Assembly: GCA_949317995.1 (NCBI GenBank)
Contig: OX439041.1
Span: forward strand, 9,064,001-9,128,000
DNA from: Acholoe squamosa
Taxonomy: Eukaryota; Annelida; Polychaeta; Phyllodocida; Polynoidae
Length of the DNA stretch: 64,000 nt
Direction of reading: 5' to 3'
Of the stretch, positions 11,735-49,640 are shown in pieces (position 1 is the first letter of the stretch; every line of letters begins with the position of its first letter). The notes beneath the pieces were generated by a model, which was given only the letters and a program-made list of their open reading frames with translations, had not been told where the DNA came from and did not search any database. The translations under genes were made by a program, and so were the position numbers.

Positions 11735-14624
11735 ATGGCTGAGGAATCCGTAACCGTAGCCAAGCTATCCGGTGACCCGGATAAGCTGACTCCGTCCACA
11801 GATGCTTTCCCGGAAGCATTGTCACCTGTTACACAGGCAGATAATGAGCTGATGGAAGTGGAGAAATCCACCGATTGTCATTCAAGGAGAAGCTGGTTTC
11901 ATTTTCTTTGATGAGCCAGAAAAACCAGTATCACCACTTCCTTCCGAAGGATCTGGAGACGCTTCAAACCCAGAAGAACAGCTAGGTGCTACCGGATCCG
12001 ACACTGACCAGGTAGAGGGATCGAAGGACCAGTGGAAACCAGTTGAGGATGACCCGTTTCCAGATGCGTACGATGGAAGGTACCTGTACGTCCACCAGGA
12101 CTTGCAGGCACAGATTGTATGTCCAGATGGTACTCCATTTAAACTGGACCCGAAAGTGAGGCTCGCGATTGAGGATGTGATGCACCTGGTCCAACTCGAG
12201 AGGATGCCACTGGAGTGGCTTAGAGATTGGACATGGTTCAAACGAAGACTTATGGTGGACATTGTCTTCTGACAGTCCATATACGAGACTAACAGAGCCT
12301 TCGTGTTGGTAGGATATCCCAAGCCTGATAGGTCTCAGTGGAATGTTACAAAAGATAACATCAATTGGGTAGGTTGTGCAGCGGAACCTGTTGGCCAGAC
12401 AAACCCCCACCCAAACACTGTCCAACAGGACTTACGTACTATTATGGAGTACCGTGAAGCAGCTTCCAACTTTGAACAGTGCAACACCGGTTATTACATA
12501 GCGGAAGCTGAGATTACCCATGTCAGGAACTCCTCTCTCCTGGGAATGGACCGTAATGCAGCTCTCCATATGATCATCCACCGTTGTATGGCAGCAGAAA
12601 AAGAAGCCTGTGAAAAGGCCCAAATTGAGGAAGCGAAACCCGCTCCCCCGATTCCTGACCTGAAATTAGACACTAGAGGCTCGGATGCTCCTAAATCAGC
12701 TTCTAGCAGCTCTACCGGTAAGTCTGTGGATCTGGCAGTCCCAAGTACCTCGGCTGAGGCTGGAAAGCCTGAACCCTGAACCAAAGATCCCGATCCGGAA
12801 GATTGGAAAGTTACCAAGAACAGGAGGTCTGCTGCTTGGCGGCTAAAGAATCTGCCTGATTCTGGCAGAGCCAATCTGAAAGCCAGCACCTCAGGCAGAA
12901 GCAGTTTGAGTACCGCCATGGATGTGGTTTCAACGGACGATGATTCTTGAGATGAGTCCTCAGTAGGGTATGATGAGAAAGTTATCCCATCTACTCAGAC
13001 TGAAGCCGAACGTTGTCTAACGCCAAATCCGGGTATAAGACCAGGATCTCGATGTGTTTCCAAGATTGTGCTTACAGAGTAAAGAAAGACGGTTCTACTC
13101 TGTATCTACTCAGACTGAGGCCGAACGTTGGGCTAACGCCAAATCTGGGTATAAGACCCCGATCTCTACATGTTTCCAAGATTGTGCTTACGGAGTGAAG
13201 AAAGATGGTTCTACTCTGTATGCCTGCCCCGATCCGGTCAACAGAAACAGGGAATTAGATGACGAAGATTGGATGCATCTTACTGACGAGGATCCCAATC
13301 CGAGCAAGGCCTATCGTAAGATGTGGCTTATGCTTAACCACACTGAAGGGTATTATACCTATACCAAGAGGCGGAAGCTGCGCTGGGAACTTGAGAAGTG
13401 GTACGGTGACGACCAAAAGTCCTGTTCCTTCTCGATTTGCCAGGATGCTAGTGATGTTTTGGTCTGTACCTGGAGTACTTCAGCCCAGTTCCAGAGCTAT
13501 CTTGTAGAACCCCACTTCCACCATCACCCGGTCTACATCTGTGACCCGAGTTATGGTAAGAAGGGCAAGAATTGTACTACAAAGGTCACATATAACCGGC
13601 ATAGTGATCTGGCAAGACACTAGAAGAAAGGCCATACTAAAGGTCAAGAACAGCCCGTAAGAAGGTTATGGATCTGCATCAGGAACTCATGAAGGAGTTT
13701 GATAGCTTAAGCGAGGATGCTTGGTTGAAGATTGGACCAGGGGACCAAGTCCTCTGCGAAGTTCCGAAAACCAAGGATTCCAAACTTCACGCTAAGATCA
13801 TCCTTACTCCTGGAAAAGGAAAGTTGGACATGCATGAGACTCTTTGGCAGAAATGCCAGGAGTCTGGAAAGGAAGGCAAGCAAGCTCAAGACAGAGTTAG
13901 AAGAGACCAGAGCCGGGGCAGATCCAGTAATGGTCAGACTAAAACCAGCACCCAATCCAGGGAGGATGATCGTTCCAGATCCCCCCTGGCACGTCACCCA
14001 CACGAGCAGATCCAGGGTACTCCTGTTTTCAAGAGACCCAGACCTGCTGGATATGCTCATGCAGCATCTAAGCCAGGGAAATTGGATACAGGGAATTTCC
14101 CGTCAATGTCACAAGGCCCTGGACCTGAGAGCCAGACCTTGGTGATTGGAAAAGGGGGTCGCCTTGTACCTAAAAAGGCCCCAGCACCTGCCGCTGCTGG
14201 ATCCGCAAGTGCCGCATCTGCTCAGCAGGTAACGTTCACCCCTTAACAGGTACAGATGTACATGGAAATGGGGTTGAAACAGAGTCAACCACCCACTTAC
14301 TGTGTCCCAGTGGCACCTGCAGGATTGTCTGGAAGTCCCACATTCGGAAATGTCATTCCGGTAGTGTCAACACCTCCCAAGAGTGTTGCATTGCCTGTCA
14401 AACCGAAAGACACGATTACCATTAAAACCTGTAGCGCAGAAATTTGGTTCGAGAGGCTCACCATGGGGAGGCGGATGTCCAGAAGGCCATCTACACCCAC
14501 TGGGAGAAATGCGTTAAAGAGACTTGAGCCTATTCTATGTGTTCCGGGTTCCTTTATAACCAGGAGTAGACTGATCAGAATACGATTTTACTGTTATCTC
14601 CTGATATTTCTATTCAGATTATGA
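11735..14624 (+). pseudogene. Element A third ORF: acidic N-terminus, W-rich domain, zinc-finger pair, basic S/P-rich tail
   Basis: Starts at the ATG at 11735 (MAEESVTVAKLSGDPDK). An acidic part leads to a domain shared with C: DGRYLYVHQDLQ, then LDPKVRLAIEDVM, EWLRDWTWFKR and YPKPDRSQWNV, about 12070-12345. Next come NFEQCNTGYYIAEAEI, then the KSGYKT...FQDCAYGVKKDGS segment duplicated by 115 bp, DEDWMHLTDEDPNPSKAYRK, and the finger pair at 13423-13620. The first finger is CSFSIC...YLVEPH; the first His of H-x4-H is Tyr here. The second is YIC...C...LARH, ending in a TAG at 13621-13623. A basic Q/S/P-rich part follows. The end, matching a coiled coil in C, is lost near 14515. Function unknown. 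Confidence 0.8.
12991..13220 (+). repeat. 115-bp tandem duplication inside the third ORF of A
   Basis: The stretch starting CTACTCAGACTG at 12991 is repeated from 13106, ending before TGCCTGCCC. The period is 115 bp, not a multiple of three, so the duplication itself shifts the frame. Element C has a single copy, showing the duplication is private to A. Confidence 0.85.
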
Positions 14625-15268: not shown

Positions 15269-15713
15269 TGTAGGGGCACGGTTTATAATAAGCGTCACAT
15301 AGGTATGAGTTGGGCAGTTCCCTAGTGGGGTGTACACTCGGGTCTGGGAAGGGTATGCTGGGGCGAGCGGTGGCAGCACTGCTCTCCGAGCTTCCTGCCT
15401 TAGACTCATGAGGTCACCACCCAACCTTCGGCTATATAAGGCCAGGTCAGTAGCTGCTGGAAAGAGAACCCTCACGGGCTCTGTACGATCAGTAAGCACT
15501 TCCCTCATCTGGTTACGAGAACTTACCTAGTACCTCATTGTCTGATTGTCTTAATACCCTGATATGAATACACTTGAACTCGGGAGCCCTTAGTTGGATT
15601 GTAAGCAGGATTCTGAATAAACCTTGTTGCCTCTTCTGTACCAGAGATTGTCGTTTGGTAGTTCTTTCTGGATTAGACATACAAACCCTAAGTCAGAATA
15701 CTTGACCATTACA
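15269..15713 (+). repeat. 5' LTR of element B
   Basis: TGTAGGGG...CCATTACA, 445 bp. A TATA box (CTATATAAG, 15432-15440) and a polyadenylation signal (AATAAA, 15616-15621) give a normal U3-R-U5 order. The last 224 bp are repeated at 26360-26545. It lacks the long AT-rich U3 seen in the A and C LTRs. Confidence 0.85.
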
Positions 15714-15745
15714 CTGGTGCTTTGACCAGTGTAATGGTCAAGTAT
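15698..15745. repeat. Perfect palindrome at the LTR/internal junction of B
   Basis: Arms 15698-15718 and 15725-15745 are perfect inverted copies (21 bp each) around the 6-nt loop GCTTTG. The left arm contains the LTR end and the start of a TGGTGC primer-site-like sequence. The right arm replaces the 5' leader and gag N-terminus, since gag homology resumes right after it. Confidence 0.9.
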
Positions 15746-16542
15746 GATGTCTTAAGAAGGGGCCAGGAAGAATTGCTGTTGACCAATGGAGGGTCCAGTA
15801 TCAAGGAGATGGGACGTATGCCCAGTTGGTAGAGTTATGTAGTGGATACTTAGGAGGTATAGTGTCTGAAGACCCCATGACTCAGTATAAGAAAAGAATT
15901 CAGAAAGCAGGGGAATCGGTAAGAGTAGACAGACTGGAACTTCAGATCCTGTTAAGGAAGGCTAGGCCTAACATAACCCTGAATTATGACTACACGAATA
16001 GTGAGATGATCTCTCATTTCATTAAGGGGTTGAGAGAGAAGGATCATCAGGATTGTGCGTATAGGGCTTGGAAGCATGGAGCCAGTATGAATACTCTGTT
16101 TGACGTGATTGAGGATTTGAATCTGAAAAGGACATTCCTTACCGGATATATAACTCAGAAAAGTAGCAGTTCCATAATGCCTACTTTGAAGCCAGTAGCG
16201 AAGGTTGCGGCTGCCCCTGTGTCTGAGGTAGAAAATGAATATGAGGTCATTGAGTTTGAGGAGGAAGATGGCAGCATCTCTGCTGTTAGATTACCTAAGG
16301 GAAATGGTAAGAAGTTTGTTTCTCGGCGTAGCTTTACTACCCAGCCTAAGAAGGGAGAGTCGGAAGACAATAGGGAGGAGTTAGAGAGTCACAGGTGGGG
16401 AAGAACTCGGTTTGACAAATCTAGGGTAAGATGTTATAGGTGCCAGAAGATGGGGCATATCGCCTATGATTGCCGAGCGTCCAAACCTGTGTCTCGAAGC
16501 TTTTCAGGAATTGAAGAAGTAATTGAGAATTCGGAAAATTAG
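15746..16542 (+). pseudogene. gag: Element B gag, 5'-truncated, with CCHC knuckle
   Basis: Homology to A and C starts mid-capsid, at the position of their VALNQWR motif (here AVDQWRVQYQGDGTY, about 15780-15820). The frame from 15826 gives a capsid C-terminal region (QILLRKARPNITLNYDYTNS, then MISHFIKGLREKDHQDC) and an acidic linker. It ends with a clear CCHC knuckle, CYRCQKMGHIAYDC, at about 16432-16473. The open frame ends with TAG at 16540-16542. The Gly/Asn/Tyr-rich gag front of A and C is absent, lost with the sequence replaced by the adjacent palindrome. Confidence 0.85.
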
Positions 16543-19500
16543 AGAGGTTCGAGATTGTGGCTTTAGACTCAACCCGTAGAAGTAATGTAAGCCAAAGTAC
16601 TGTCAACAGTGAGTCGTCGCAAGAATCCGAAATGAGTACGTCTGGCAGGGCAAGTGAAGAGGCTAATCACCTCTCCCTTCCCAGGCCAGGGAACCTAGTG
16701 AGTCAGGTAATTAGAGGATTGGGAGTGTACCAATTACCACTAGCGAAGAGGAAGGGCTGTGGGTTTCTGAACTCACTCGTGTATGTATGGCATACCTTCC
16801 CCCAGATCATCCTTGTTTGAGACATATAAGACAACAAGGGTTGGATCTTGGCATTTCGGAGATTTTGATCAGTTGACTGGGAACTCATCTCCATTCGGAG
16901 GTAGGAGATGGTATGTGCCTGTTATTCAGGGTAGGACTGGAGAATTCTTGGTCGATACGGGGGCTAGTCACTCATTGGTTTCCAAGCGATTCCTCAGCCA
17001 GTTGCCGAATAAGACTGAGAACCTCATAACGGGGGTAAAGGCTTGCATGGCCGACGGATCAGATATGCAGGTCGTTGGTAAGGCATGCATTGGAAATCGG
17101 AGAATAAGAATTCGTTATATTTCCAATTATAGCAGAGGTTAGGGATGATGGTATACTCAGATTGGATTTTGCTAGTCTCTTCAAGGCTGAATTGAACCCA
17201 AGTCAGGGTATTTTGAGTATCAGGAAACCATATGACATCTAGGTTTTATGTCTGCTCTGACAGATCAGTTCAGTGGCTAGTGTAGTAGACACAGTTAAGA
17301 TTCCTCCGGGTGTCTCCTGTGATGTGTTATGTACCACTGAAAGGGCTCTGAAGGGACAGGAGAGTTTTTTTTAACCGGATACTGCCCACCTGGCGAGTAT
17401 TGGATTGGAATCTGTAGATACTTTGGTAGGGAATCCGTTCTGGAATGTGCTACCCATGATGAATCGGGGAGGTGAAACTATATATCTCAAGAAAGGTTCT
17501 GAAATAGGAGCATTAACTCTGGTAAACGCGGTAAAGGATTCGGTTAGTAAGCCTGATGAGGAAATGATTCCATCAGGGAAGGTGAAACTGAATGAACAGC
17601 TGGATAAGATTATTGAGGATTCTTCTTTGGAAAATGGTTATCAGAAAATGGAAGTACGGAATCTGTTACAAAAGTATGGGGAGGCATTTGGTTACTCAGG
17701 TGAACTCCTAGGTCGGAACGATAAGGTCTTGGTGATCTGTTATGGAAGAAAAGTTTGGTGTATTTGAATGACGTAATTGTGTTTGGTAAGACGTTCCGTC
17801 AATGTTTGAATAACTTGGAAGTAGTAATAAAGAGACTTGTTTCCAATGGCTAAGAAGTGTGAATTGTTTAAGAAATCTATTATGTACTTGGGAAGGATAA
17901 TATCCCCAAAGGGCATTGAAGCTGATCCTGAAAAGGTGGAGAGTGTGCAGAATTTGGAAAGACCAGTGACTGCTAAGCAGATCAGGTCGTTCCTAGGATT
18001 TTGCAGCCAATATAGGGATTTCATTCCGGGTTACTTACGAGTGAGTTTTCCCCTACAAAGTATTGCGCATTGGACACCTGGAATGCAACTAATGCAACGG
18101 GGCACTTTATTTTAGATACGGATGCTAGCAACGACAGCATTGGAGCAGCACTTTCTCAGGTCCAGGATGGTATGGAAGTTCCAATCGTGTTTGCTAGCAA
18201 TACTCTGAATAAAGCTCAGAAAAATTATTGCACCACAAAGAGGGAACTTTTAGCTGTTGTGGTTTATACGAAGAAATTTATACATTTTTTGTGGGGTACA
18301 GATTTTACATTTAGGACCGATCATTCATCACTCCGTTGGTTACTTAATTTTAAAGACGCTGAAAGAATGATGGGAAGATGGTTGGCCTACCTTTCAGAAT
18401 TCGGATTGGAGAATAGTCAGGTACAGCATAGGTCAGGAAATAAGCACACTAATGCGGATGCTCTCTCCAGGAGACCAATTAAGAAGTGCAATCGGGAGGA
18501 TTGTGATGATTGTGGACAACATAATGCAGTCAGTGCGAATGTATGAATGCCGTATAGGGATCATCCTGAAACCCTAATTGAATGGTCACCAGAGACTATT
18601 TGTCAGTTTCAGAATAAAGATTCCGCAACTAGGAAACTCCTGGAAACAGTTCCACTTGGAATAAAACCCATGAGACCTCCTATCAGTATGGAGAATAGGG
18701 AGATGAGAAGATTTCTAGCTCAGTGGACCGAGTTAGAAGTTAGAGATGGAATTTTATGTAGGTGGAAAATAAGTCCAACTAATAAGATTCTTCAGATTGT
18801 CATTCCGAGTGCTATGCATCGGGATATTATGTATTATTGCCATGGCCATGTGACAAGTGGTCATTTGGGAAGAATAGATCTCTGGAAAGATTTTCCCGGA
18901 GATACTATTGGCCGGGGATGAGTTGGGATCTACTTAGATGGATTGCCACTTGTCCTGATTGTTGTAAGAATAAACCTGGTGAAGGAATAGGAAAAGATCT
19001 CTTAATTCAGGAGTTGTTTGGAGTGAGATTTGCCAGAATTGCAATTGATATTGTTAGTGGGTTCACTACAACCCCTAGGGATAACACTTGTATGATGGTA
19101 GTTTGTGATTATTATACGAAGTATACAAAGGTGTTCCCTTTGAAAAATCATAAGGCTGTTACTTGTGCAGAAGCATTTGTAAGAGGCTGGGTGTTGCAGT
19201 TTAGGGTACCCCTTATGCTTCACAGTGATCAGGGAAGGGAGTTTGAATCGGAATTGTTTCAGGAAATGTGTAATTACCTGGCTATCTGTAAGACACATAC
19301 TAATCCGTATCGTCCTCAGTCAGATGGCTTGGTAGAGAGGTTCAACAGGACCTTGTTGCAAGTTCTGAAACCATTGGTAAATAATTATCAGGATGATTGG
19401 GATGTTCAGTGTGATTTTGTAGTGGATGCATACAATAGTACCGTGCATGCTTCTACTAATTGCACGCCAAATATGTTGGTTTATGGTGACGATATTATCA

Positions 19501-20245
19501 TGCCAGCAGACTTGGTATTTGGTGTGATCGGAATAAGTCCTGAAACTCCATATTCTATAATGTTTGTGGAGTCACTGAGGGATAACTTTAGAAGGGCTTA
19601 TAAACTCTTTCGGAATCAGTTGGAGAAATCAGCAAAATGGCAGAAGGTGGGCTACAACACTGGGTTGAAACCTAATTTTTCAGGGTAGGTGATAGAGTCT
19701 TACGATTCTATAAACCCCTTGATAATCTGAAAGTGGTTTTCAGTTGGGATGGCCCACATGTCATAACGCAGATTATTTCTGAAACTAGCTGTTTTATGAA
19801 AGATCTGAACGGTCATGTGAGAAGGTGTCATGTGGAAGTATTAAGACCCTATAGGGGTAGAAAATTAGCGGAAGAAGTTTATGGACTAGGTCCAAATGTT
19901 ATGGAATTACCTGGGATTGTAGACTTACCTGAATTGGGTGAGGATGAAGGCTAGGGAACGGTCCCGGATGAGAAGGTGATATCTGAAAAGATGAAGAAGA
20001 AACCACGGAAGTTGCCTATGATAGGTAATCGGAAAAGAAGAAGGAGGAAGAAGAATGAGGTGAAAGTGATTGAGAAGGGTGTTAAGAATAAAAAAGTCTC
20101 GGCAGGAGTTGGAAAGACAAAGCAATCCGGGAACAGAGGGACTAGATCATCTCCCGGGAACGAAGCCGCGTGTCCCAATACTAGGATTAAAACTGAGAAG
20201 GAGGGTGTGCCCTTAGTGCTAGGATCACACAGAGAAGCGGTGTAA
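16543..20245 (+). pseudogene. pol: Element B pol: protease, RT remnant, RNase H, integrase with basic tail
   Basis: Protease has an intact LVDTGASHSLVS (16948-16983). RT is mostly deleted: near 17740 the protease-RT linker runs straight into the ...VYL part of the YxDD region, which reads YLND (17761-17772) instead of YLDD. RNase H at 18100-18480 is complete and shows DTDASNDS, TKRELLAVV, RTDHSSLRWLL and NADALSRR. Integrase (18837-19688) has YYWPGMSWD, TCPDCC and all three acidic motifs (DIVSGF, LHSDQGREFES, SDGLVERFNRT). After one frameshift it gives a WDGPHVITQI C-terminal domain. A TAG at 19952-19954 separates this from a very basic tail (KKKPRKL, then NRKRRRRKK) to 20245, a likely nuclear-import signal. 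Confidence 0.9.
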
Positions 20246-21149
20246 CCTAATGAAGCCTTATCTGAATTTCTAGGAAGTGTTGACTCTTGTACACAACGAT
20301 GTATTGTCCTGTACGATGTCCATATGTTTATATGTATGTATTGTTACGTGTTATGACAGTAGCGGTGTCAACTGGGTTGACAGCGTATTCAGAATGCGAA
20401 CACGAGTAGGAGGAATTGCTCTAACCTGCTCTATTGTCTGCAACTTGATTGTTCCCGTGGGTGATGGAAGGAAGTATCTGACGTATCAGTATAATACTAT
20501 ACATAGTCTCCATAGATACTACTGAAGAGATTAAGTTGAGAAGTGATGATACGACTTTGATAGGGTGTTTTGTTTATGAGGGTGCCAGCACGTGTCGTGT
20601 GACCTCATTTATGAAACGAGGCCAAGACACCTTTGACCCCGATTAGGGTTCTTGCGGGAAGACCCGCCATCTTGTCGAATCAGGCGTGGTGACCGGTAAC
20701 GGCTGCACGCTTTGGCGACTTGGGAAGCGAATTTATGCGGAGAAAGGCAATCAGGAAGTACAAAAATCTGTCCATTTGGTTAATGAGATTGTTAAGAAGC
20801 AAAAATGTCGTACCTTTGGGTATTGTGGGTTCTGGTTTTGGTCGGAATGACTCAGAATATGTTGTGTGAAGACGTTAAGATGGAGGTTGAGAAGCAGGTC
20901 AGTCCGGTCAACTCTGAAAACGAACGCTTGCTGGAAGATATGTCTGCGGCTAGCAATTTGGTTAAGAATATAAGTTCAAATGACGTTAAGATGGAAACTG
21001 ACATGGAAACCAAGGAGAATCCCATTTCTGCAGAAAGTGTGGTTCCAGTAGAGTCGAATCGGGAAAGGGATACTCAGGAACCCATTCCGGATGTCACACT
21101 TGGTAGCGAAGATGGTGCGGAAGCATCGCGGTCGGAAGAGGATGGCCTC

Positions 21150-22479
21150 CTCTGTACTTTGGATGCACAGGAAAGCCGGGGTGTGGTCAACTATGAGACG
21201 GGGATCATATGTTGGCCTAGCAATGACACTATTATCATATACCTTTTTATTATTCCATAAATTGTGACATATTACTGTATAAATCAAAGAATACATAAGA
21301 AATTAATACATGGATTGGCTATAAGAGCGCTCAAACATTCTATAAGAGCGTTCATGCTCCACTGCACACCAGCTAGGGGAAGGATACATAGGTTACAACA
21401 TCAAAGAGTCCGACCTCATGGTCCACTGCAGAATATAATGCTTTTAAGAGTCTAAGAGAACGACCTCATGGTTCAGTGCACAAATTAATAACTTGTAAGT
21501 GAATGCAAACGGCCTGGCCTGGCCACCGCTGACGCCGTCATGGGTTTCTGAGCACCCCAACACTGAACAATAGGTTACATAAGTAACGACACCATACCCT
21601 TCAGGTCAAATATGAAAAGGCCATAATTAGACGCTCGAAATGAGCCCAAGATCAAGGTGTAACTCTCATTATTAAGGAAGTTATGCCACCGAGACTGTTT
21701 CAACCTCTGAATGCGCTATAGACGAACCAACGCAAGTTACGAGCCCAGGAAGCCGGAGTTGGTAACTTGACATATTCAAGTGAAGGCTGTAGCTGCGTAA
21801 ACGACCGAGATATGAGGGTCTGAACATGCCAAACTGACCAAGACAATGGGGGACATGGAGGCGTCCATGGGGGTCCTTTGTGCACCCAGTGACACATGAA
21901 AGACTCCCCTCAAACAATTGCAGAGTTAGGCAGATGCCACTGGCTCCACTCAGTCTGAGGAGCCAAGCCAGGAAATGGTACAAATACCACTGGCTGCTCC
22001 TCCTAGAAAGCAGAATCACCTGAACCACCCTTGAGGTAACATCTCCAGTCAACACTCCTGCTACCTGCTATAGCTCTACACTATGCTGGGTTAGACTATG
22101 CCAGACAGGCATAGGACTGAACCACTAGTGGCCAGAGACTACCTGCTACAAGACACCTACCAGAGGGTAAAGTTAAACATTCATATATTATCCCTCTAAG
22201 CAGCAGGTCAGGAGCTAGGTGTGGGAACCCACCTAGGACCATACTGGACATTGTATTATTATTATTATCTCACAGGTGGAGTGGAACAGAACATTATACT
22301 TTATAAACAATTGTATATTTACTGTGTGTGGAAATTACCTGCATATTAACATGTATGTAACTGATATTCTTACATGTTTGCCTAAAGCTGAATAAACCAG
22401 TGATAACTGGAAATAACACATTATAAGAGCTTGATGTACTTACACTATATACCACTAGTCATATGATATTTCTCATATG
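21150..22479. other. Unidentified ~1.3-kb insertion or replacement within B's third ORF
   Basis: Coding similarity stops near 21150 and resumes at 22520. The interval has no supported ORF. It contains an AATAAA near 22391, several ATG-poor AT-rich stretches, and short CATATG palindromes at both ends (21204-21211; 22459-22481). It could be a solo LTR or a non-autonomous element, but I recognise no family and see no clean target duplication. Confidence 0.5.
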
Positions 22480-22519
22480 ACAAAGTCTGACCTGGATCGG
22501 GATCCAGGTCAGACTTTGT
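22480..22519. repeat. Perfect palindrome at the right end of the insertion in B
   Basis: Arms 22480-22498 and 22501-22519 (19 bp each) are perfect inverted copies separated by GG. Directly to the left, 22459-22481 forms a second small stem (GTCATATGA / TCATATGAC). Confidence 0.9.
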
Positions 22520-24766
22520 TCCAGTTTGGTGGAAATCCATGGGTTAAGGAGACTCCAAAGACCTTGGACAAATTAGTTGAGCAGGATATGGCCCATTCCG
22601 GAAGCATGACAATTAGGTCTGCATCCCAGGTCATTAATCCCTCATTCGGTAACTTGGAAGAACAAGAGTTGGTTAAGGAGGAGACTAGGATTCAAAATGA
22701 GGCTTTCAGGGATGAGGAGTTAATCAGAAAACAGGAGGAGCAAGATCAGATTATCCTGAAACAGAAATCGGAATTGGCTGCCATACAAATGGATGAGGCA
22801 AATAAGGCAGACATGGCCCGTCTTAAAGTTGCTCAGACTCTGACAACACATGGAGCAAGTAAAAACGCTACCAAAGAAGGGTTTGGGACTAAAATCACAA
22901 AGAGAGCTCGGGATATGCTTAAGAAGAGAATGAAGGTAGAAAATAAGGAAAAAGAAAGATCAGTAGGGAAACCTGTGACTGAAGATGATAGCTCAGAAAT
23001 AAGTACATCAGTAGGTCATAAATCTGAAGACACTGAATCAATTAAGGATGACACTGACAGTACCAGAGTGAGTGGGACTGGTCAGTTGACATCGATCATC
23101 TGGAAATGTACGATGATGATGACAAGATGACTCCAGATGAGAAGAAAATCCAAGCTAATGTCAGAAGTGGATTTAAGATGTTCATACCTAAGTATATGAT
23201 GGAGTGCAAGCAGAATAAAAAATATTTCAGTTGCCCTCCGCTCATTGATATGAATGGTGAGACGGATTTGGAAGAATGGATGCGGGCTACTAGGAAGGAC
23301 AAACCTTTCTACATGTTCTATGTTAAGTGGGTTGAGGAGACATTGGATAATCGGATTGAAGAATACTATGATTTTGATGCGTACAGTAAGATTAAATGGG
23401 CAATTGACTCATGAAGTGAGAAGGAGAATAAGTTGTGTCCATTCACTATCTGTAAGGACACCCCGATCAGATATTCCAGCCATATCCGTATCATCAGGCA
23501 TATCGTGGAAGAACATATGCATCACCTTCCAGAATACATATGCTATATGGATGTCGGTAGGACTGGACGTTTCTGTGAAGGTCTGAAAACATGTCGGATG
23601 GGGGAGTTGGTGAGACATCTGAAGGATGATCATCAGATGGGAGTGTTTGTAGCAGTGGATAAGGTATTAGATTTGCATCAGATGTTGTTGGCTGAGTGGG
23701 ATCGGTACAAAGTTAAGAATTTCGGTAGTCTGACAGCCAAGGTGCCCAAGTTCTGTCAGGTATCTAAGGTTGAAGCCAGATTTGAACTAAGAATGACGAC
23801 AGGAAGACTATGGATCGAGTCAGAACACTTTGAGAAGATGAGGAAATACTGGGGCGATGAAGCCTACAGGGATTCAAAGGGAGCCAGTAATGCAAAGCAA
23901 TCTAGGGTTTACCTGCAAGGAATGTACCTATTCCATGGGATTCAACGTCCGACTCCAGTAAGAATATCTGGAACGAGTTTGGAAGGAGGACGCTGTGACA
24001 GGTACCATCCAAGAGCGTCTAGTTCAGGTCAGGAGCAAGGTCGGAAGAATTTGAATTCCGGTATGGAACAGAGATCACCATTTGGATCTCTGCAGGGTGC
24101 AGCCCCACCCAGATTGTATTAGAAAACTAGGAAGGACTTTCCAACTCTAGGGACACCGGGAAAGGAAAGTCAGTGTCTGGACAGGTATGGTAAAACTAAG
24201 AAATCAGCCCCAGTGGCTGGTCCTTATAATGAGTTTAAGGTTCCCCAAGATGTCAGATATAGGGATATGGCACAATCTGGATCGTTAAGTTCTTCTGCTG
24301 ATTCAGGTTCAAGGAGGCGGAAACACGTTTCTGAATCCTCACGGTCTGAATCGGAGGGAGAACCAACACCAGTCAGAAGACCACCTACTAGGGATGCTGT
24401 TTTGTACCCCTTTGAGCGGATGAGTGATGAATTATTCAATGTAAGGAGGATGCAGTTAGGGAGTGGCAGAAGACACATGAGGAGATGGCAGTTTCGTATC
24501 TGAATAATGTGGTGCACTCAGTTGTACAACTGACGCAGAATGTTCAGAGTTTGGAAATAACCAGAATGGAGAGGGATAAGAAGGAAGAATTTGATCGTAA
24601 GTTGAAGGAAATGTTAAATAAGGAGAAAAAGGCAAATAAGAACAATGATTTTTGGAAGATGGAGGTAGCCAGAGCTAGGTCAGAAACTGATAAACAGATT
24701 GCTGAGAATGGTCTGGAAACAGAACCAGAAAAGCCTTATTCAGATGAAGAGGGTATTGAAGATTAG

Positions 24767-26359
24767 GTTATGAGTTAAGAAACAGTAAGAAATGTTAAGA
24801 TGTATGAATTCAGTACCTACCTAGAGGAGACGAGACGTATTCCCAAGCATGCTGATGCCGAGTAACTCTATCCTGAATAGAATTACTCCTAAATCTTGAT
24901 CATCGACGATGGATTTTGTGACCGTGGGATCTGTGGTAGCTGATTCAATGTGTAGTGACTATGTGTGATATGATGATATACTGATACATCAATCCACATA
25001 TGTTTGAACTTTTTGCTAAAGCACAGGATATGAGTGCTAAAGCATACATGACTACTAATGGATACTTTATTAACAATCAGGACACCAGGTGTGTATAACC
25101 AGCAGTGATTACGAATGCTGGAATATGAACAATAACTACAAAGTGAACTGTTCTATACGTGCAAGTTGAGTCTTGCTAATAGGATTACGTAAATGAACAT
25201 TACAACTTCAGTTCAGTTCAGAGACAGTATTGGATTATATGATTACACAGCTACCCTGCTACCACCGTAGGGAGGAAGACTTAGAACACCACATCGGGAT
25301 ATAGACTCTATGAACAATTTGCATATTGTTCTAATATATACAAAGCCTATATTATTTTAGTGATATTTGTACGGTATTCTACTACCCTGGTAGTTTACCA
25401 ATAGATAGGTATATCTGGCAAATGTTAAGACCAGATTCAGGTGTAATGGTTTGTATCGACTTAAATGTTGGGTGGCTTGTTGGCTCGCTTATCACTAAAG
25501 ACACCAACACAACACGAGTAGTTCGGGTTGGGCTAAGCCCCAGACTCCCCTACCGCTCAGGTAGGAATTTATTATGTTCTCTCTGTTATAGAACATACGT
25601 CTGGACTGGACTATGTCCAGTCTCCTTCTGCGGATCGTCCGGCTTCTTAGTAGAAGCTGGACGCAAGGTATGGTGCTGCCCCCTCTTGTACCAAACGGGT
25701 ATCGCGAAGCGACACCTGCTGGGCATAGAAGGAACGAGCACCACATGAGCGCGTCTCTCGGATGAAGCGCACTAATATATATACAACGATGCCGGCCCCT
25801 ACACAGGTTATTATACCGTGTGTGTTCATATTTTTTTCTTTCCGGTTAAGTAAGAAAATAATTAAGGATCTTGCAGGTATTCATATATATAATGTATAGG
25901 ATATGTACTATAGTCTGTACAGTAAATTATTTTTTCATAAAAAAAAAAAAAAAAAAAAAGCCATAAGGTCTAGAGGTAACACAATTATCAGGTTCTCAAA
26001 TCACTACTATAACTAGTAATATGTATTTGAAATTATGCGGTGCCAATGTAAAGATATTGATATTGATTTAGAATACTTCTAAGTATCTTTCAAGGTTGTT
26101 ATGTAAAATAACCTTAATTTCTTTATTCCCGAATGTTGTTGTTGGGTTTAATGTGTCCTAGGAAAACACTATTTGTGTGTCGGATATATGACTATTTATT
26201 ATCTGGTTGGATCGATGTAACACCATTACTATGATAATTCGGTATTATGTTTGTATACATCTAATATAATTATTACCAGATTAGTAAGCAGGCGACTCGT
26301 ATGCTAGCCATGTGCCCTAGTTGGTATAATTGTGTTAATACTATAACTTAGTTACTACC
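24767..26359 (+). other. 3' non-coding region of element B
   Basis: No ORF is supported. Contents: AT-rich sequence to about 25440, a run of stem-loops at 25573-25712, a poly(A) tract of about 20 at 25939-25959, and AT-rich sequence to 26359. The U3 of B's right LTR should lie at the end of this interval, but it does not match the U3 of the left LTR. Either the right LTR was rearranged or another piece of DNA is included. Confidence 0.45.
25573..25712. repeat. Four consecutive stem-loops
   Basis: Inverted repeats in a row: TATGTTCT/AGAACATA (25573-25597), GACTGGAC/GTCCAGTC (25604-25622), an 11-bp stem with one G-T pair and loop TAGT (25637-25662), and GGTATCGC/GCGACACC with one mismatch and loop GAA (about 25698-25716). 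Their spacing suggests a structured RNA element, but no known family is recognised. Confidence 0.5.
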
Positions 26360-26545
26360 CAGTAAGCACTTCCCTCCTCTGGTTACGAGAACTTACCTCG
26401 TAACTCATTGTCTGATTGTCTGAATACCCTGATATGAATACACTTGAACTTGGGAGCCCTTAGTTGGATTGTAAGCAGGATTCTGAAAAAAACCTTGTTG
26501 CCTCTTAGACATACAAACCCTAAGTCAGAATACTTGACCATTACA
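26360..26545 (+). repeat. Truncated 3' LTR copy of element B
   Basis: Matches 15490-15713 closely (CAGTAAGCACTTCCCTC... to ...CCATTACA), with an internal deletion of about 38 bp between CCTCTT and AGACATAC. Sequence upstream of 26360 does not match the left LTR, so U3 is missing or replaced. Confidence 0.85.
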
Positions 26546-35463: not shown

Positions 35464-35508
35464 ATCATAAGTGCTATTACAGCTGAACTCCGGGACAGTC
35501 TTAATTTG

Positions 35509-40419: not shown

Positions 40420-41655
40420 TGTAATGATTTTGGTCTTACGGACCTGGGGGTTTGGGTCTTACTATTCGGGAAAGAAAGAGTAAGACAGTGATTCAAGTGT
40501 ATGCCAACGGATAGTCTTTATTAAATACACACTCACGGCTACCCGATAGTTGGTAATAGGGCAGCTAACAGATATTAAGAGATGGTCCTACATGATTGGA
40601 GGCCAGGAGGGCCTCTGGCGTAGCGGCTGAGCCCTGGGCTTTATATAAGAACCCAGGTGTTCATCGTCAGATGTCCCCACAGACCCGGATCGGTGCTGCC
40701 ACCTATCCGGAACCTGAGGAACGTCCGACGACTCGACTCACCCGCCATGTCAGACGGTACCCAACACTATGGTTATATACAACACGTACCTCTACACCAC
40801 TCCCCCAGACATTTAGGAAGGAGTTATAGCTATTGTATTATTATAGGGATAACATTACTATATGTCTAAACCCTAATAATAGAGGTACAACCATAGATAT
40901 AACATTAACATCATGTATAGTATGATTTGAATGTCAATTTCATATATTTGATAGTGTATATAGCTACAGAATAACAAACCGGATGTTGTAATACAATGCA
41001 AATTTGTCGAATGAATAACAGTTATGTGTAACGGAACTGTTAATTAACATTTTATACCATATATTAACAATCTATGTTTACGGTATAATTATTAGGATAA
41101 GTATCATAATTCGCATATGCGTGATAATAACAGTTGTATGTAACGGAACTGTTAATATTGAATAAATCACATGATAACATCCTCATGGGTTTGTAATTAT
41201 TAATATCACAAATGATTATCTAGTCTTGAGAAAGACTTTTAAAGTAACCACACTATCTAATGACATTTTATATGTTACGACCAATGAATCTGTTAAGGGT
41301 TTTGTGAGTTTTAGGAATAGGACCGTTATGAACTATACACTTGAAAAGAAAAAAAATTACAGTGGAATAATGTATATGACACTATATGTGATACCACCAT
41401 GTACCAAATAACCATTATAGCACCAGATGAATATATTTATACAAGAATATGCCTCGCAGGACAATAATCTGAATAATCTGGTGAATATACACTATGAAGT
41501 TTACCAGATCTTATTAAATAATATGAACAGTAACCAGAGATCCGTATTAATATATATACCCGTATCAAAATATACAGTAATTTATCATCACAGTGTAACT
41601 ATGCACATACAAATAATATTTAGAAAAATAGTTATATGATATTATATACATGACA
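40420..41655 (-). repeat. 3' LTR of element C
   Basis: On the minus strand it starts TGTCATG (41655) and ends CATTACA (40420), 1236 bp. A TATA box (TTATATAAAG) at about 40640-40650 and an AATAAAG signal near 40517 lie in the order expected for U3, R and U5. Aligns with the two pieces of A's LTR. Confidence 0.85.
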
Positions 41656-42340
41656 AATAATAAATGCTGCTGGAGTCTTGCGCCGCAGTCTGCCGGATGC
41701 CAGAAGGTAGGTAGGGTGGTCAGCTAACCACGGGATGGACGTGTTAAAGTCTTTTTATAATCCAGGGTAATAAATGTAGACATGGTAGATGAATTTGGGG
41801 CAGCTACCCACAATCCTCTAGAAGTGCTATTGTTCATAGGTATATCTGAATGGTGTAGAATAATAGTAGAATAATAGTCCGGTAGTCAACAAGTAGAAAC
41901 GTAATCCTTTTTGGTATGGTTGACATAAATGTGAGTCCAAAATAGGTTGATCCGGAAGAAATAGTATGTAGTAGTATGTAGTTTAATCCATTCGGAAGTA
42001 GAGGTAGTATAGAATCGTATAGTCCATCCTTATATAGTGGTCAGCAACAGGTAACAGCAAGAGTCAGGAACCAGCATCCGGATACATATGACAGCAGCAA
42101 ATCTACTATCGGATTTTTTATAAGTATAGTTCCTAATCCGAATAGGCTATTCAGGATATAATAAAGAGTTATATGTCCTGAATCATACAATTAGCTGGTT
42201 TTAAAAGGAACCCGGAAGACATAGAGTACAGGTGTTCATATTCTAATAAAAGACATTCGCAGATGTGTAGTGTTCCGCAAAGACTAAATCTGGTTATTAT
42301 GGGAAAAGGAAGGAATATAGAAGAATAACCTGTAGCATGC
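41656..42340 (-). other. 3' non-coding region of element C
   Basis: Shares ordered blocks with the 3' region of A, including TTCTAGAGGATTGTGGGTAG. No ORF. Confidence 0.6.
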
Positions 42341-45236
42341 TTAGGTGGATTTCTTAGCATGCTTCTTCCTAAGAAGATCTAGAGCCGATTCGGGAGTGCC
42401 GTCCCACTCGTCGATATCGACTCCGAATACCCTCATAAACTTAGTGTTTAAGTTGGTATTCCGGGTAATCTCCTCCTTAACACGTTTCTCCAGAACGTGT
42501 ACGTCCATAGCTGCCTGTTCTTTGGCAGCTAAGGCTTCATCCTCCCGGGCTTTGACATCGTCCCGGATGACGGTCTCGAGACGCTGTCTTTCGGCGTCCG
42601 CCACCTCCTTCATACACAACAGGGTATCATTAAGGAGACCCTGATGGAAGTTAGTCACTCTGTCGCGGACACATTTCTCCCAGTGGGTGTAGATGGCCTT
42701 CTGGACATCCGCTTCCCCCTGGCGAGACTTCTCAAACCAAATTTCTGCGTTACCGGTTTTAATGGTAATCGCATCCTTTGGTTTCTCAGGTGGTGCAACA
42801 ACCTTGGGGGTGTCGACACTGCCTGAGGGCCACTTCCGGATGTAGGGCTTCCGGATACTCCTGCTGTTGGTAGACAGTAGGTGGGAGGTGCTGGATTCTG
42901 CTTCAGCCCCATCTGCATGTACAGTTGTACCTGCTCTGGGTGAAGTTGGCTGGTAGGGCAGGCTGCAGCAGCTGCGGATCCGGCGGCAGCAGGTGCTGAA
43001 GTCTTCTTGGGGACAAGTCGACCTCCCTTTCCAACGACCAGGGTCTGGCTCTCAGGTCCAGGTCCCTGGGTCATAGACGGAAAGTTACGGGTGTTAACTT
43101 TCCCCGGCTTCGATACAGCAGCTGCGTATCCTGCAGATTCAGGTCTCTTAAAGACAGGAGTACCCTGAACCTGCTCATGTGGGTGACGTGCCAAGGGAGA
43201 CCTGGAGCGATCTTCTACCCTGGCTTTAGTTGCTGTGGTGGTCTGACCATTGCCGTTACCACCACGGGTCTGGTCCCTTCTGCTCCTCTCATGAGCTCTC
43301 TTTCCCTCCTTTCCGGATTCCTCGGACTTCTGCCAGAGGGACTCGTGCATGTCCAGTTTTCCTTTGCCGGGAGTCAGGACAATCTTGACGCGGAGTTTCG
43401 AATTCTTGGTCTTCGGAACTTCGCAGAGGACTTGGTCCCCTGGTCGGATCTTCGACCAAGCATCTTCTCTCAGGCTATCGAACTCCTTCATGAGTTCCTG
43501 ATGAAGCTCCATGATGCGTTTACGAGCTCCATCTAATCCTTCCACGTGGCACTTTTTCTGGTGTCTAGCCAGATCGCTACGTCTGTTATATTGCACCTTC
43601 ATAGTACATTTCTTCCCCTTCTTACCATAACTCGGATCACAAATGTAAACCGGGTGATGGTGGAAGTGGGCCTCTACAAGATGCTTCTGGAACCGGGCTG
43701 AAGTGCTCCAGGTCCGGACCGAGACATCACTGGCATCCTGGCAGATGGAGAAGGGACAGGACTTTTGATCGTCACCGTACCACTTCTCAAGTGCCCAACG
43801 CAGCTAGCGCCTCTGGGTATAAGTGTAGTACCCTTCGGTGTGGTTTAGCATAAGCCACATCTTCCGATAGGCTTTGCTCGGATTGGGGTCTTCATCCGAG
43901 AGACGCATCCAATCCTCATCATCCGACTCGTTGTTCTTGTTTACAGAGTCCGGGCAGGCGTACAGGGTAGAGCCGTCCTTCTTTACTCCGTAAGCACAGT
44001 CGGAGAAGCACGTTGGGATCCGGGTTTTAAATCCGGATTTGGCGTTAGCCCAACGTTCTGCCTCGGTTTGAGTTGATGGGGTGGCCTTCTCATCATACTC
44101 CACCGAGGACTCGTGCACTGATTCCTCGTCCGAGGAAACAACCTCCATGGCAGTACTACCAGTGGCTGAGGTGCTGGCTTGCGGGTCGGCTCTAACAGAA
44201 TCGGGAAGATTCTTGAGCTTCCGAGCAGCGTACCTCCTGTTCTTACTGACCTTCCAGTCTTCATCCGGGTCCTTGGTTCCGGACACACTGGAGGTCGAGG
44301 CTTCTACCGGACTCGGATCGGTAGTACTGCCGGTGGCTGTTGCAGAACCGGCTGTGCTTCTGGTGGCAAGCTTCAGGTTGGGGATAGGAGGTGCGGGTAC
44401 ATCCGCTTCCCTCTTAGCCTCTTCCAGGGCTTCCTGCTCCGCAGTCATACGACAGACGAGGATCGTCCGAAGGGCTGCGCTCCTGTCCATACCCGTTAGC
44501 GACTTGTTTTGTACGTCGACCAACTCTGCTTCAGTTACGTAATAACCATCGTCCCACTGTTCAAAATTGGCAGCGGCTTCACGGTACTCCTTCATGGTCC
44601 GGTACTGGGGCCGGGTGGCACAAGGACGCGGGTTCCGAGACGCAGCCTACCCAATCAATGTTGGTCTGTTTGACATTCCACAGAGACCTGTCCGGCTTCG
44701 GATACGCTCCGAGCAGGAAGGCTCTGTTTGCCTCATACACTACTTGGCGAAAGGCAGTGTCCACCATGAGTCCTCGTTGGAACCACGGCCAGTCTCGGAG
44801 CCATTCGGGTGGCGTCCTGTCCAGCTGTTCGGGAGCCATGACGCCCTCGATAGCCATTCTCACTTTCGGGTCCAACCTAACAGGTGTACCGTCTGCGTAG
44901 GTTACCTGTACCTGTAGCTCCGGATGAACGTACAGGTACCGACCGCCGTACTCTGCTGGAAACGGGTCAGCCACTGCTGGCTTCCACTGATCCTTCGGGC
45001 CGTCGACTTGTGCAGTCTCGGATCCAGTTGCTGCTGCTTCAGGATTCGCAGCGTCTCCAGATCCCTCGGTCGGAAGTGGTGACAACATCTTCTCGGGCTC
45101 ATTCTCCTTGAACGAGCGATCCGTGGGTTCCTCCACTTCCATCAGCTCGCTCTCCGCCTGTGTTACAGGTGACAAAGCTTCTGGAAAAGCTTCTGCGGAC
45201 GGAGTCAGCTTATCCGGGTCGCCGGATAGCTTGTTG
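42341..45236 (-). pseudogene. Element C third ORF: best-preserved zinc-finger / coiled-coil protein
   Basis: N-terminus fused to integrase near 45236. The acidic part (45175 down) leads to the shared domain GGRYLYVHPELQ, LDPKVRMAIEGVM and EWLRDWPWFQR. A frameshift lies near 44600. Then come NFEQWDDGYYVTEAEL, a Ser/Thr/Asp-rich linker, KSGFKTRIPTCFSDCAYGVK, DEDWMRLSDEDPNPSK, and a TAG at 43804-43806. The finger pair is at about 43545-43765: CPFSIC-x19-HLVEAH and YIC-x10-C-x14-HQKKCH. Next are KRIMELHQELMKEFD, a basic S/R/Q-rich part (RSRSPLARHPHEQ), a Pro/Ala-rich part and, after a shift near 42657, a charged coiled coil of about 100 residues (EVADAERQRLETVIRDD...). Probable nucleic-acid-binding, self-associating protein (inference). 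Confidence 0.85.
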
Positions 45237-48200
45237 TATTCAGTCCACTAATGATATCCACCCCGATTCTTGCGAATCTAACTCCGAAAAGTTCTTGGGA
45301 TAGTGGAAGCTTGCCCATCTCGGGTCCTGGTTTGTTTTTACAACAGTCCGGACAGGTGGTTACCCATCTTTGCAAGTCCCGTGTCATGCCAGGCCAGTAG
45401 TACTTCTTGGAAAGTCGTGCTAATGAGCGTTTCCTCCCGAAATGACCACTGGTCCGATGCCCATGACAGAAGTACATAATGTCATGTCTCATGGCATGTG
45501 GTATTACCCCTTGCATGATTTTCTCACCATTATTACATGGCTTCCAACGGTATAACACGCCTTTCCGGACTTCAAGCTCTGTCCATTGAGCAAGAAACCT
45601 TCTCATTTCTCAGTTTTCCAGAGAGACCTCCAGTCTAACTGGACATATAACCTTTGGTACTAATTGCAGTAGCTGTGCAGTTATCGAGTCAGTTTCCTGG
45701 AAACGTCGTATGTGATCCATAGACCAATCCAGTATACTGGCAACTAGGGGTTCGAATGGTCTTCGAATCCCTGCTAGCACTGCTCTATGAGCTCCACAAT
45801 CAGTACAAGCTGGATTATCACATTTCCGTATTGGTATTCGAGACAAAGCTTCAGCATTTAAATGCTTAACTCCGGGTCTATGCTGAATCTGGTGATGTTC
45901 AAGCCCATACTCGGATAAATGGGCTAGCCATCGACCTAGCATTCCTTCAGCATCTCGGAAGTACAGTAGCCATCTTAAATAGGAGTGATCCGTACGTAAA
46001 GTAAAGTTCGTTCCCCATAAAAAATGTTTGAACTTCTTGGTATATACGACTACTGCTAACAACTCTCTTTTGGTTGTGCAGTAATTGCGCTGAGTTTTAC
46101 TCAGTGTGTTGCTGGCAAAGGCAATAGGTACCTCTCTCCCATTTTGGACTTGCGAGAGAGCTGCACCAATGCTATCATTACTAGCATCAGTATCCAATAT
46201 GAAATGATCCGTTTCATTCGGATATTGTAATACTGGAGTACTCATGAACAGGTCTTTTAGCTTTTGAAAAGCAGATTCCTGTTCATGCGTCCAAGGAAAT
46301 TTTTCCTTGGTACTTCCTGGCGTCCAGTTAGCAATTGCTTGTAATGGGTAACTGACTCTAGAATAATTCGGAATAAATTCCCTATAATAGGAACGGAATC
46401 CTAAAAAGGACCTCACCTCTTTGGGTGTTTTAGGTCTATTCCAATTCGTAAATGATTCGATTTTATCGGGATCAGCTTTTATTCCTTCATCACTAATGAT
46501 GCGGCCCAAATAATTTATGGACTTTCTAAACATGTGGCATTTCTTGGGTTTCAATTTGAGACCATTAGAAATAATACGTTCTAATACCAATTTGAGATTG
46601 TTAGAACATTCTCCGAATGTTTTTCCGAAGCCTATTACATCGTCAAGGTATAGAAGACATCTTTTCCACAATAAGTCACTTAGGATAGTTTCCATCATTG
46701 CTTCAAATGTTGCTGGTGCATTGCACAAACCAAACGGCATTACATTATATTGGAATAATCCAATATGACTCGAAAATGCAGTCTTTTCCATATCTGATGG
46801 ATTCATTCCCACTTGCAAATATCCTGATTGCAAGTCTAAGGTACAAAACCAACTGTTTCCTCATAAGGAGTCAATGGTTTCGTCTATTCTCGGTAATGGA
46901 TACGAATTCTTTTTCGTTATTCCATTCAACTTCCTGTAGTCTATGTAAAAGCGGATAGTACCGTCTTCTTTTAGTTACCATACACACAGGACTACTCCAT
47001 GAACTATTGGATGGGACTATTACGGCCTGTTCAAACACCTTGTTTATTTCCTCTTCAGCTACTCTCTTCTTCGCTAAAGGTAACCGCCTATATGGTATTT
47101 TAAAGGGTTCCGCATCTCCAGTATCTATTTTATGGACTACCTTATTTGTCGTACCTAGTTTTTCACCGGGTTTGGCATAAGGCAGTCTTATACTGACAGA
47201 GCATATCATAGAACTCTTTCCGGTGTTCCGGATCTTCTAATGAAGTTTCTTCATACAACTTGAGTAAGTCATCCGAAATTTCATCATCTTCTGTTACCTT
47301 CTGTAAGTTTAACTTACTATCAGTTACAGTTTCCGAAAGGGTCACGTTACCAAAAACTTGTCCCTTTTTTAAGTAGATAGTAGTGTTTCCAGTGTTAGAG
47401 ACAGGTACTACCGACCAGGATGCATTTGCTACTATAGTGTCTACAGATGTTAATCCGATACTTGACAGAGTAGCTACATCCGGTTCTATCACTGCAGGCT
47501 TATTACGCATTGCAGGATCACTTCTTACAAGCACATCACAGGCTACACCCGGAGGGATCCGCACAGTGTGTGCTACACTAGCCATACTGCTCACTTGTCT
47601 CAGTACACACCTAACCTTTACAGGATACGGGTATTTCACACTCAACTCTCCTGATTGGGGCTCCAACACCACCTCATACAGGGATGCGAAATCCAACCCA
47701 AGTATCCCCTCATCTGCTATATCCGCAACGGTGGCGCTCATGACATAGTCATGTATTCCATCCAATTGCAGCTTCACACAAGTTCCTCCATACGTTTGCA
47801 AGGTACTGCCATCGGCCGTTTGAGCACTTCCTCCCGATTTGAGAGTATCATGTTCATTCGGGATAAGATCATAGAACCTCTTGGAGATACAGGAGTGGCT
47901 AGCACCCGTATCCATAAGAAATTCGGCAGATCTTCCGTTAACAGTGAGGCAAACATACCACCGCCTTCCGTTTAGAACAGAAGGCGTGTCCGTAACGATC
48001 GGAACGTCATTGTTCACACCTGGAGTCAATGCACATCCTTTCAGGTATGCCAGACAAGGATGAATCGGGGGTAGGTAGGCACTACCAACCCTGGCTAACG
48101 CATAGCCGCCTACCTCGTTACTGATATCGGGTTTCCCCTGTGCTCCCTGGGCACCTGTTATATCAGCTTCCCTAACCTTCCGGGTGTCTACAACCACCTC

Positions 48201-48293
48201 GGTGTTAGGCGAGTTTGTTACTACATGCGAACTTTCGTCACGGATGGTGATATCATGGCAAGACTTGTCACTGGGATCCCCTTCTTTGCCCAT
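45237..48293 (-). pseudogene. pol: Element C pol, integrase truncated
   Basis: Frame 48293-47163 starts in the -1 frame relative to gag and carries the protease (FLMDTGASHSCISKRF, about 47890-47920). Frameshifts near 47190 and 46975 disturb the RT N-terminus (IPYRRLPLAKKRVAEEEINK). 46833-45610 gives the rest of RT (MPFGLCNAPATFEAMM, LLYLDDVIGFG), YLGRIISDEGIKADP, RNase H (DTDASNDS, TKRELLAVV, LRTDHSYLRWLL), and the start of integrase, with a TGA at 45610-45612. 45606-45237 has the zinc domain (HGHRTSGHFGRKRSLARL, YYWPGMTRDLQRW, TCPDCC) and stops right after the first catalytic Asp (VDIISGLN), where it is joined to the third ORF. Confidence 0.9.
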
Positions 48294-48307
48294 AGGGGGA
48301 CCCCTCC

Positions 48308-49640
48308 TCAGTTTTCCTCTGTACTTATTCCAGAGACACCTTCCTGTCTGCGAGGGACAGGTTTCTCAGCCATACATTCGGGAGCATAATGTCCTAATTT
48401 CTGGCATCTGAAGCATCTCCTTTGAGATTTATCAACTCTAGGTCTTTTCAGAGCCTCTGTTAATCCGGCTATTAATGTCTCCATCATATTAGTTGGAGTA
48501 GCAGCGGCTACTACGGTAGGAGTGACCGTAGTGGTCGCACTACCCGATTTAATAGGTCCGGAAGCTATTTTACTAGCCACGGCCCCTCCCCTTCCTTTCG
48601 TATGTACCTTCCTATACCGTTTCTGTCGGTAATACTTTCCAGCAACCTGGACTGATCCAATATATTCTCCATTTTCATCAGAGACATATTCATCTTCCTG
48701 ATCAGCCTCCTGTAGATCGACAGGGGCTAATTGGGAAGTTTCATATACCTGAGCAGGGGAACCTCCGTATTGCAATTGAGCTGCTCGGACCGGATTCGGT
48801 CCTAGACCTACCAATCTCTTCTTCATATCATGTCCATCGATTGATATGAATAGGTCACTGAAGGATGTGTCATCCTTCCAAGAATCCCAAACTACTTGTT
48901 TGTGATCCGGATCCCGCAATCCATTGTAGAATTGTGTAAACAATTCCTGCAGATAGCAGTCATCATCATGAGCCCAATTAGGATGTGCTTTTGATAGCAA
49001 GTCCTATAGCTCCAAACTAAAGACTTTATGAGATTCTTTAGGTTTTTGTGTCTTCTTCTTAAAGCTTACCCATGGATCTTCTCTAACGATCGAACCAAAC
49101 AGGTACGCGGCACACTCGACCAATTGATCATATGTGTCGTATATTCCGTACACAGCTCTCCATTGATTGAGGGCTACTTTTCAACCTTTATTTAACCAGC
49201 AGATCAAATAAGGTAAAGCTTCTTCTTTTGTCCAACCACTACAGTTGACTTCATCGACAAAAGCTTGATACCTATCCTTCCAAGGATCATTAGAATCATA
49301 AGGAGGGCCACCCGGGGGATTACCTCCAGGGGGACCACCACTAGGGTAGTTCCCGGAAGCACCACCAGGGTATCCACCTCCATAACTTACATTTCCAGTT
49401 GTTCCGGAAGATGTATACCTGGGGTAGGAATTATTTTGATTCCATCCCTGGTTATATGTATTACCATTTTGGTAATTACTACCTCCTGCCGGATTATAGT
49501 TATACCTATATCCGTAGGGAGTTGTTCTTGGTAGGTACGTACCACCGGTCACATTAGGTTGTGGGGGGTTCGGTCTAGGGAAGCGTCCACCATTCGGAAC
49601 ATTGCTTTGACCAGACCTGGAAGAGGTACTTTGCCAGTTT
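48308..49640 (-). pseudogene. gag: Element C gag
   Basis: A Pro/Asn then Gly/Tyr/Asn-rich front (PNPPQPNVTGGTY; YNQGWNQNNSYPRY) leads to the capsid motif NCSGWTKEEALPYLICWLNK (about 49195-49255). A nonsense codon (TGA) sits at 49181-49183, just before VALNQWR. From 49000 come the capsid C-terminus (ELFTQFYNGLRDPDHKQVV) and an acidic then basic linker. Last is the CCHC knuckle (CFRCQKLGHYAPEC, about 48375-48416), and the frame ends TEEN-stop at 48308. Pol follows in the -1 frame. Confidence 0.85.

Follow-up and report, generated by a model that had tools for sequence, protein, structure and literature searches.

In foamy viruses, a weak internal promoter with basal activity leads to the DNA-binding protein Tas, and activation of the long terminal repeat (LTR) follows (PMC7390438). 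CERV of the Ty3-type element Cer1 of C. elegans is a nuclear protein made from a spliced mRNA and required for export of the genomic RNA (PMC10309623). In plants, the additional open reading frame (ORF) of Grande elements is transcribed from its own promoter and has a nuclear product, and the TRP28 domain present in ORFs of Grande and Retand elements is thought to bind DNA (PMC7264820, PMC11963269). Here, we describe a third ORF (ORF3) following pol in three Ty3-type LTR retrotransposons, named C, A and B, which are located in a stretch of 64,000 nucleotides of the genome of the annelid Acholoe squamosa (assembly GCA_949317995.1, contig OX439041.1, positions 9,064,001 to 9,128,000 of the forward strand; in the following, the window). 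ORF3 was shown to be an accessory gene that is conserved within one group of Ty3-type elements; kept by selection and possibly switched on by its own promoter, it is a likely element regulator.

A conserved third gene under purifying selection

In elements C, A and B, the ORF3 copies following pol are all damaged (Table 1). The original prediction, made from the letters of the window, had proposed a post-pol third ORF in four elements; it is conserved in C, A and B, while the fourth case, element Z, matches in two zinc fingers only. The elements belong to Ty3/Gypsy (Metaviridae), having an aspartic protease, reverse transcriptase (RT) and RNase H followed by an integrase with zinc-binding and core domains. 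Pfam matches were obtained for the protease, RVT_1, RT_RNaseH, Integrase_H2C2 and rve; a CCHC knuckle is present in gag and a GPF motif in the translation.

For the identification of further copies, the source genome (1.48 Gb, 63 contigs) was searched. Only the best candidates were scored, so that copy counts are lower bounds and no unbiased sample. The C ORF3 protein gave at least 109 matches (108 places scored of 10,430 candidates), and in a search with the C finger region the best 40 of 2523 candidates were scored, all being at least 93% identical. The B query yielded at least 150 matches (6838 candidates) in three bands of relatives with approximately 80–94%, 59–68% and 54–56% identity, the latter two being designated B2 and D. 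The ORF3 copies in the genome exceed chance. Most of them are broken: none of 20 C loci has an uninterrupted ORF3 frame, and a stop-free frame of at least 980 amino acids (aa) was found in 7 of the 109 listed C-protein matches, one of these being a gag fusion (L040). A frame of exactly 976 aa is present in 8 of the 150 listed B-query matches, and the copies L037 and L038, when read directly, are open across 976 codons.

Purifying selection had been proposed as a check in the original prediction, and it was found. Over 976 codons, the D members D1 and D2 differ with nonsynonymous (dN) and synonymous (dS) divergences of 0.069 and 0.538, giving a dN/dS ratio of 0.128, and the ratio is below 0.26 in each of eight ORF3 regions. 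The other sense frames gave 1.8 (+1) and 2.3 (+2); one antisense frame reached 0.20 but contains 30 stops. C copies showed ratios of 0.06–0.43 compared with L027 (19 loci) and 0.07–0.59 compared with L019, ratios among young copies being inflated by post-insertion decay. For A against the C references, ratios of 0.15 and 0.20 were obtained (pol control 0.11–0.43). Between subfamilies dS is saturated, hence no dN/dS is given there, and element B, whose DNA matched none of the C ORF3 references, was excluded from the respective table. ORF3 is thus under purifying selection and was kept across several subfamilies. Ty3 elements are mostly treated as gag-pol only; the retention of a large third gene under selection in several subfamilies shows that this lineage depends on some function beyond those of gag and pol.

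Protein features and search for relatives

Between the subfamilies C/A, B, B2 and D, the ORF3 proteins are 29–59% identical, pol being better conserved. The D protein consists of an acidic N-terminal part (1–80), a conserved domain (81–190), a charged linker (191–400), a conserved block bearing Cys residues (401–505), the finger pair of C2H2 type (506–580), a post-finger block (581–690), a basic stretch rich in R, S and P (691–850) and a helix-prone end (851–976), with region boundaries placed by eye on alignment A1. D1 and B2 are most alike in the finger pair (61% identity) and diverge most in the linker (27%). The finger pair of the original prediction was seen in the translation of C and also in natural ORFs, whereas a coiled coil in C was not supported when the window was searched by tblastn with natural ORFs of the family. 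The protein start MAE is conserved in C, A and D and lies directly 3′ of a stop codon in D1. The product is predicted from these features to be a soluble protein of about 980 aa; a structure model of four window pieces had a mean predicted local distance difference test score (pLDDT) of 39.6, too poor to be used.

No Pfam family above cut-off was found in the ORF3 window pieces and 10 aligned members, and neither a dUTPase nor any other accessory enzyme of known type was matched by this set at E 1. A Pfam C2H2 match was absent for the C, A, B, B2 and D members. The best profile match in the PDB, where no ORF3 relative was found, had an E value of 0.025 and fell into the low-complexity end. In the protein database no ORF3 relative was obtained at E 0.001 (7994 and 7982 candidates scored), relatives with too few shared exact words being possible; pol RT relatives with up to 75% identity are present there, and this negative result for ORF3 is weak. 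All six RT relatives P0009–P0014 (57–75% identity) derive from ENA records. The viral contigs searched held no ORF3 relative either, which is likewise a weak negative, and a literature search, with subscription journals mostly outside its scope, found no paper describing ORF3. Two further points of the original prediction can be compared with these results: no described family was found in Pfam, PDB or the protein database, and a profile match to a known gene, named there as a sign of host-gene capture, was not obtained. ORF3 is a new protein family within a known kind, the additional ORFs of LTR retrotransposons, known here from one genome.

That ORF3 encodes an envelope-like or other membrane protein is highly improbable. 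Its position after pol, and nothing else, speaks for this; the highest 19-residue Kyte-Doolittle mean in four ORFs was 0.63–1.27, so no membrane-type hydrophobic segment was detected in them, and Pfam gave no envelope match. The proposal that the gene is neither envelope nor dUTPase could thereby be corroborated.

The pol-ORF3 spacer as candidate internal promoter

The spacer between pol and ORF3 (Table 1) is about 84% identical between C and A at the DNA level, compared with 70–72% in the N-terminal part of ORF3. Readable spacers were available for 17 of 20 C loci, the other three lacking the start motif and being unscored. Two motifs were found in them, which we take to be a cAMP-response element (CRE) and a YY1-like site. 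The perfect CRE palindrome TGACGTCA occurs twice in 14 of the 17 readable loci and once in the remaining 3, as it does in A; across 198 kb of C loci, 32 of its 34 occurrences fall within the pol-ORF3 spacer. GCCATATT is found near −187 in all 17 readable C loci, and GCCATCTT lies at −180 in D1; B has it too, at a distance of about 139 nt upstream of its presumed start. Alignment of the A and C spacers is strong (score 227 versus 38 for shuffles), the D and B spacers are clearly related (102, best of 500 shuffles 41), and D with C is marginal (34 versus 33).

From these data we propose, with a probability of roughly 40%, that ORF3 is a gene with its own promoter whose nuclear, DNA-binding product raises or protects element transcription in a Tas-like manner. 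Transcription of ORF3 would most likely start in the spacer, as the conserved non-coding sequence suggests, and host CRE-binding and/or YY1-type factors may drive this candidate promoter. The protein would then most likely enter the nucleus, bind element DNA and raise or protect element transcription, as foamy-virus Tas turns on the LTR.

Several observations weigh against this proposal. The B spacer could not be aligned with that of C (211 of 500 shuffles equally good), perfect CREs are absent from the B and D spacers, and the YY1-like site is absent from that of A. Since the YY1-like 8-base core occurs 12 times in the 64-kb window, a single match is weak. If LTR and spacer were bound by one protein, they should share words; the excess of such words is only marginal in C (p ~0.05), and B shows no excess. 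Also, the pol-less D copy L038 retains an intact 976-aa ORF3 despite loss of the spacer. Finally, in C and A a splice-acceptor-like CAG precedes the ATG by two nt and suggests a spliced mRNA instead. It is part of the motif TTCC(C/T)(C/T)CAG|TC ATGG, which all 17 readable C loci and A have where ORF3 begins.

This last site would fit an RNA-export or RNA-handling factor, i.e. a CERV-like protein, possibly made from a spliced mRNA, which would bind nuclear genomic RNA of the element and mediate its export or protection. ORF3 shares with CERV the position between pol and 3′ LTR, a finger, helical parts and the absence of envelope features, and strong structure was found in the 5′ leader of one copy (z to −6.2, 160-nt windows). 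However, no acceptor-like site was seen directly before the D start, gag exons supply the N-terminal half of CERV while ORF3 begins with an MAE of its own in C, A and D, and the part of the 3′ untranslated region tested in one copy is free of strongly structured windows (z not below −2.1). The two gag-ORF3 junctions look like deletions, not splices. In L038 (minus strand), which lacks pol and spacer, the junction with gag lies about 39 nt upstream of the intact ORF3; this junction is unique among 40 places scored, the other 39 matching no further upstream than about 39 nt from the ATG. In L040, a C-family copy, the junction lies within ORF3 with a 2-nt overlap. L038 as proof of splicing was rejected on these grounds. 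The fusion in L040 (630–5093, plus strand) is in frame and gives, without pol, an open frame of 1488 aa. An export function would also leave the conserved spacer unexplained, and because of this spacer the Tas-like function is favored over the CERV-like one, which we consider doubtful.

VANC proteins of plant DNA transposons are described as countering host silencing. ORF3 might similarly bind element chromatin and counteract silencing: it is a large protein with fingers of the DNA-binding type, and the gene is conserved although its sequence changes fast between subfamilies when compared with pol. As Pfam scans revealed no domain common with described suppressors, we regard this as unlikely.

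The Tas-like proposal can be extended to a two-promoter circuit, in which a host-driven internal promoter would yield a large two-fingered DNA-binding protein without known relatives that in turn switches on the LTR. As a whole, this circuit is tentative at best. If true, a foamy-virus-like circuit would have originated outside the Retroviridae. A genuine internal promoter would give the regulatory logic of complex retroviruses a retrotransposon counterpart and would make the question of why certain elements escape silencing testable with one protein and one DNA piece of 500 bp.

Insertion pattern

C insertions are clustered, with 55 pairs closer than 2 Mb compared with a mean of 21.8 and a maximum of 39 in 2000 shuffles (for contigs 13, 17 and 18, the tests of this section used guessed lengths). 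Such clustering could point to ORF3 as an integration targeting factor, a role that the original prediction had suggested besides those of a nucleic-acid chaperone and a silencing suppressor. D carries the same gene yet is unclustered (4 pairs, null 5.3), and this makes targeting very unlikely; Z behaves likewise (8, null 6.0). A weak tendency towards the C clusters was seen for older copies of B (4 of 43, p 0.06) and B2 (4 of 38, p 0.05), which fits survival of old copies better than targeting. Several C clusters lie near mid-chromosome and could mark regions of low recombination.

Elements in the window and further observations

Table 1. Coordinates of elements, ORF3 copies and spacers in the window
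Feature	Position	Strand	Remarks
Element C	40420..49615	−	5′-truncated; 3′ LTR end at 40420; matches to L043/L044, carriers of family-copy ends
Deletion junction in element C	45233..45234		C 45368–45234 aligns with A 10272–10406, C 45233 onward with A from 11761; ORF3 ATG of A at 11735
Element B	15490..26545	+	Direct terminal repeats 15490–15713 / 26360–26545, ~95%; inserted in 3′ part of element A
Damaged ORF3 of element C	42344..45233	−	Pieces 45233–44606, 44646–43804, 43803–42655, 42808–42344 (C-terminal end); from translations and tblastn with natural family ORFs
Finger pair of element C	43546..43758	−	C-x4-C-x19-H-x4-H, then C-x10-C-x14-H-x4-H; position counted from translation; same pair in natural ORFs
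Damaged ORF3 of element A	11735..14521	+	Start codon kept; last ~105 codons gone; internal stops
Damaged ORF3 of element B	20805..24763	+	Start approximate; from translation and from B, B2 and D ORFs as tblastn queries
pol-ORF3 spacer of element A	11215..11734	+	Candidate internal promoter; one perfect CRE palindrome at ~11465; TTCCTTCAGTCATGG at ORF3 start
pol-ORF3 spacer of element B	20290..20804	+	CCCGCCATCTTG, YY1-like core at 20666; similar to D spacer

On the plus strand, element A extends from about 5.9 kb to the insertion of element B, and its 3′ part continues at about 26.66 kb. Its ORF3 contains an 89-base direct duplication, 116 bases apart (13017–13221). In element C, the integrase, the spacer and the ORF3 start codon are deleted. 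Direct repeats of 376 bp (98.9% identity) and 383 bp (98.2%) were found in the L022 and L027 copies, respectively, while the 5′ LTR of L011 is cut short. As read by eye, the flanks of L022 permit TGTAGAGG..ACA ends with a TCAG duplication, which is matched in 3 of 4 positions in L027. A 134-bp LTR with CA..CA ends and without target duplication was withdrawn in view of the repeats in these two copies. In element B, the LTR end and primer-site region (15690–15745) form an 18-base inverted repeat with a 6-base loop, and the leader just 3′ of the 5′ LTR in a C copy (L043, 1661–1900) is strongly structured (z ~−6). The C-family integrase tail in L010 (3177–4994, plus strand) has a basic end and an AT-hook-like KRGRGRPKK stretch.

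The Z copy of the window represents another, GC-rich family, having its fingers in the C-terminal extension of a single long frame. Its profile match to C, B and D is restricted to the two fingers, and its membership in the ORF3 group was rejected as unproven; the likeness could reflect common descent of an old domain or general C2H2 likeness. The first finger of the Z copy L045 is canonical (zf-C2H2, E 1.5e-4; 22.5 of 25.2 bits, below the curated cut-off). About 40 of the 150 listed Z matches share the same open frame of 2505 aa, indicating a young family with a C2H2 pair after the integrase, and several Z copies lie about 2.3 kb apart on contig 12 near 50.24–50.25 Mb. Elsewhere in the window, frames at 33181–36483 (minus strand) resemble a DIRS-type element with tyrosine recombinase, as judged from the translation, and a 24-base repeat array is located within a reading frame at 53334–53909.

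Comparison with known systems

Bdelloid rotifers also have non-envelope ORF3s in invertebrate LTR retrotransposons; these are GDSL esterases or DEDDy exonucleases, other rotifer ORF3s being env, and no finger protein is among them (PMC5408684). Plant Grande and Retand elements share with the annelid elements a long stretch between pol and 3′ LTR with a conserved extra gene, but their extra ORFs are antisense whereas ORF3 is in sense orientation (PMC7264820, PMC11963269). Like CERV, ORF3 is located after pol, lacks envelope features and has a Cys-rich finger and helical parts; both are confined in their occurrence, CERV having no relatives outside its own host group and ORF3 being known from a single genome (PMC10309623). 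CERV differs in having 517 aa, N-terminal exons derived from gag, a finger of the C4 type and a GTPase-like domain (PMC10309623), while ORF3 has about 980 aa, its own ATG, the H-x4-H finger pair and a candidate promoter of its own. Foamy viruses, unlike the ORF3 elements, are Retroviridae with an envelope gene, inside which the internal promoter lies (PMC7390438), and Pfam scans detected no sequence relation between Tas and ORF3. Nevertheless, both are accessory genes 3′ of pol, with an upstream internal promoter that is proven for Tas and a candidate for ORF3, and with a product acting as nucleic-acid-binding regulator, proven in foamy viruses (PMC7390438) and proposed for the annelid elements.
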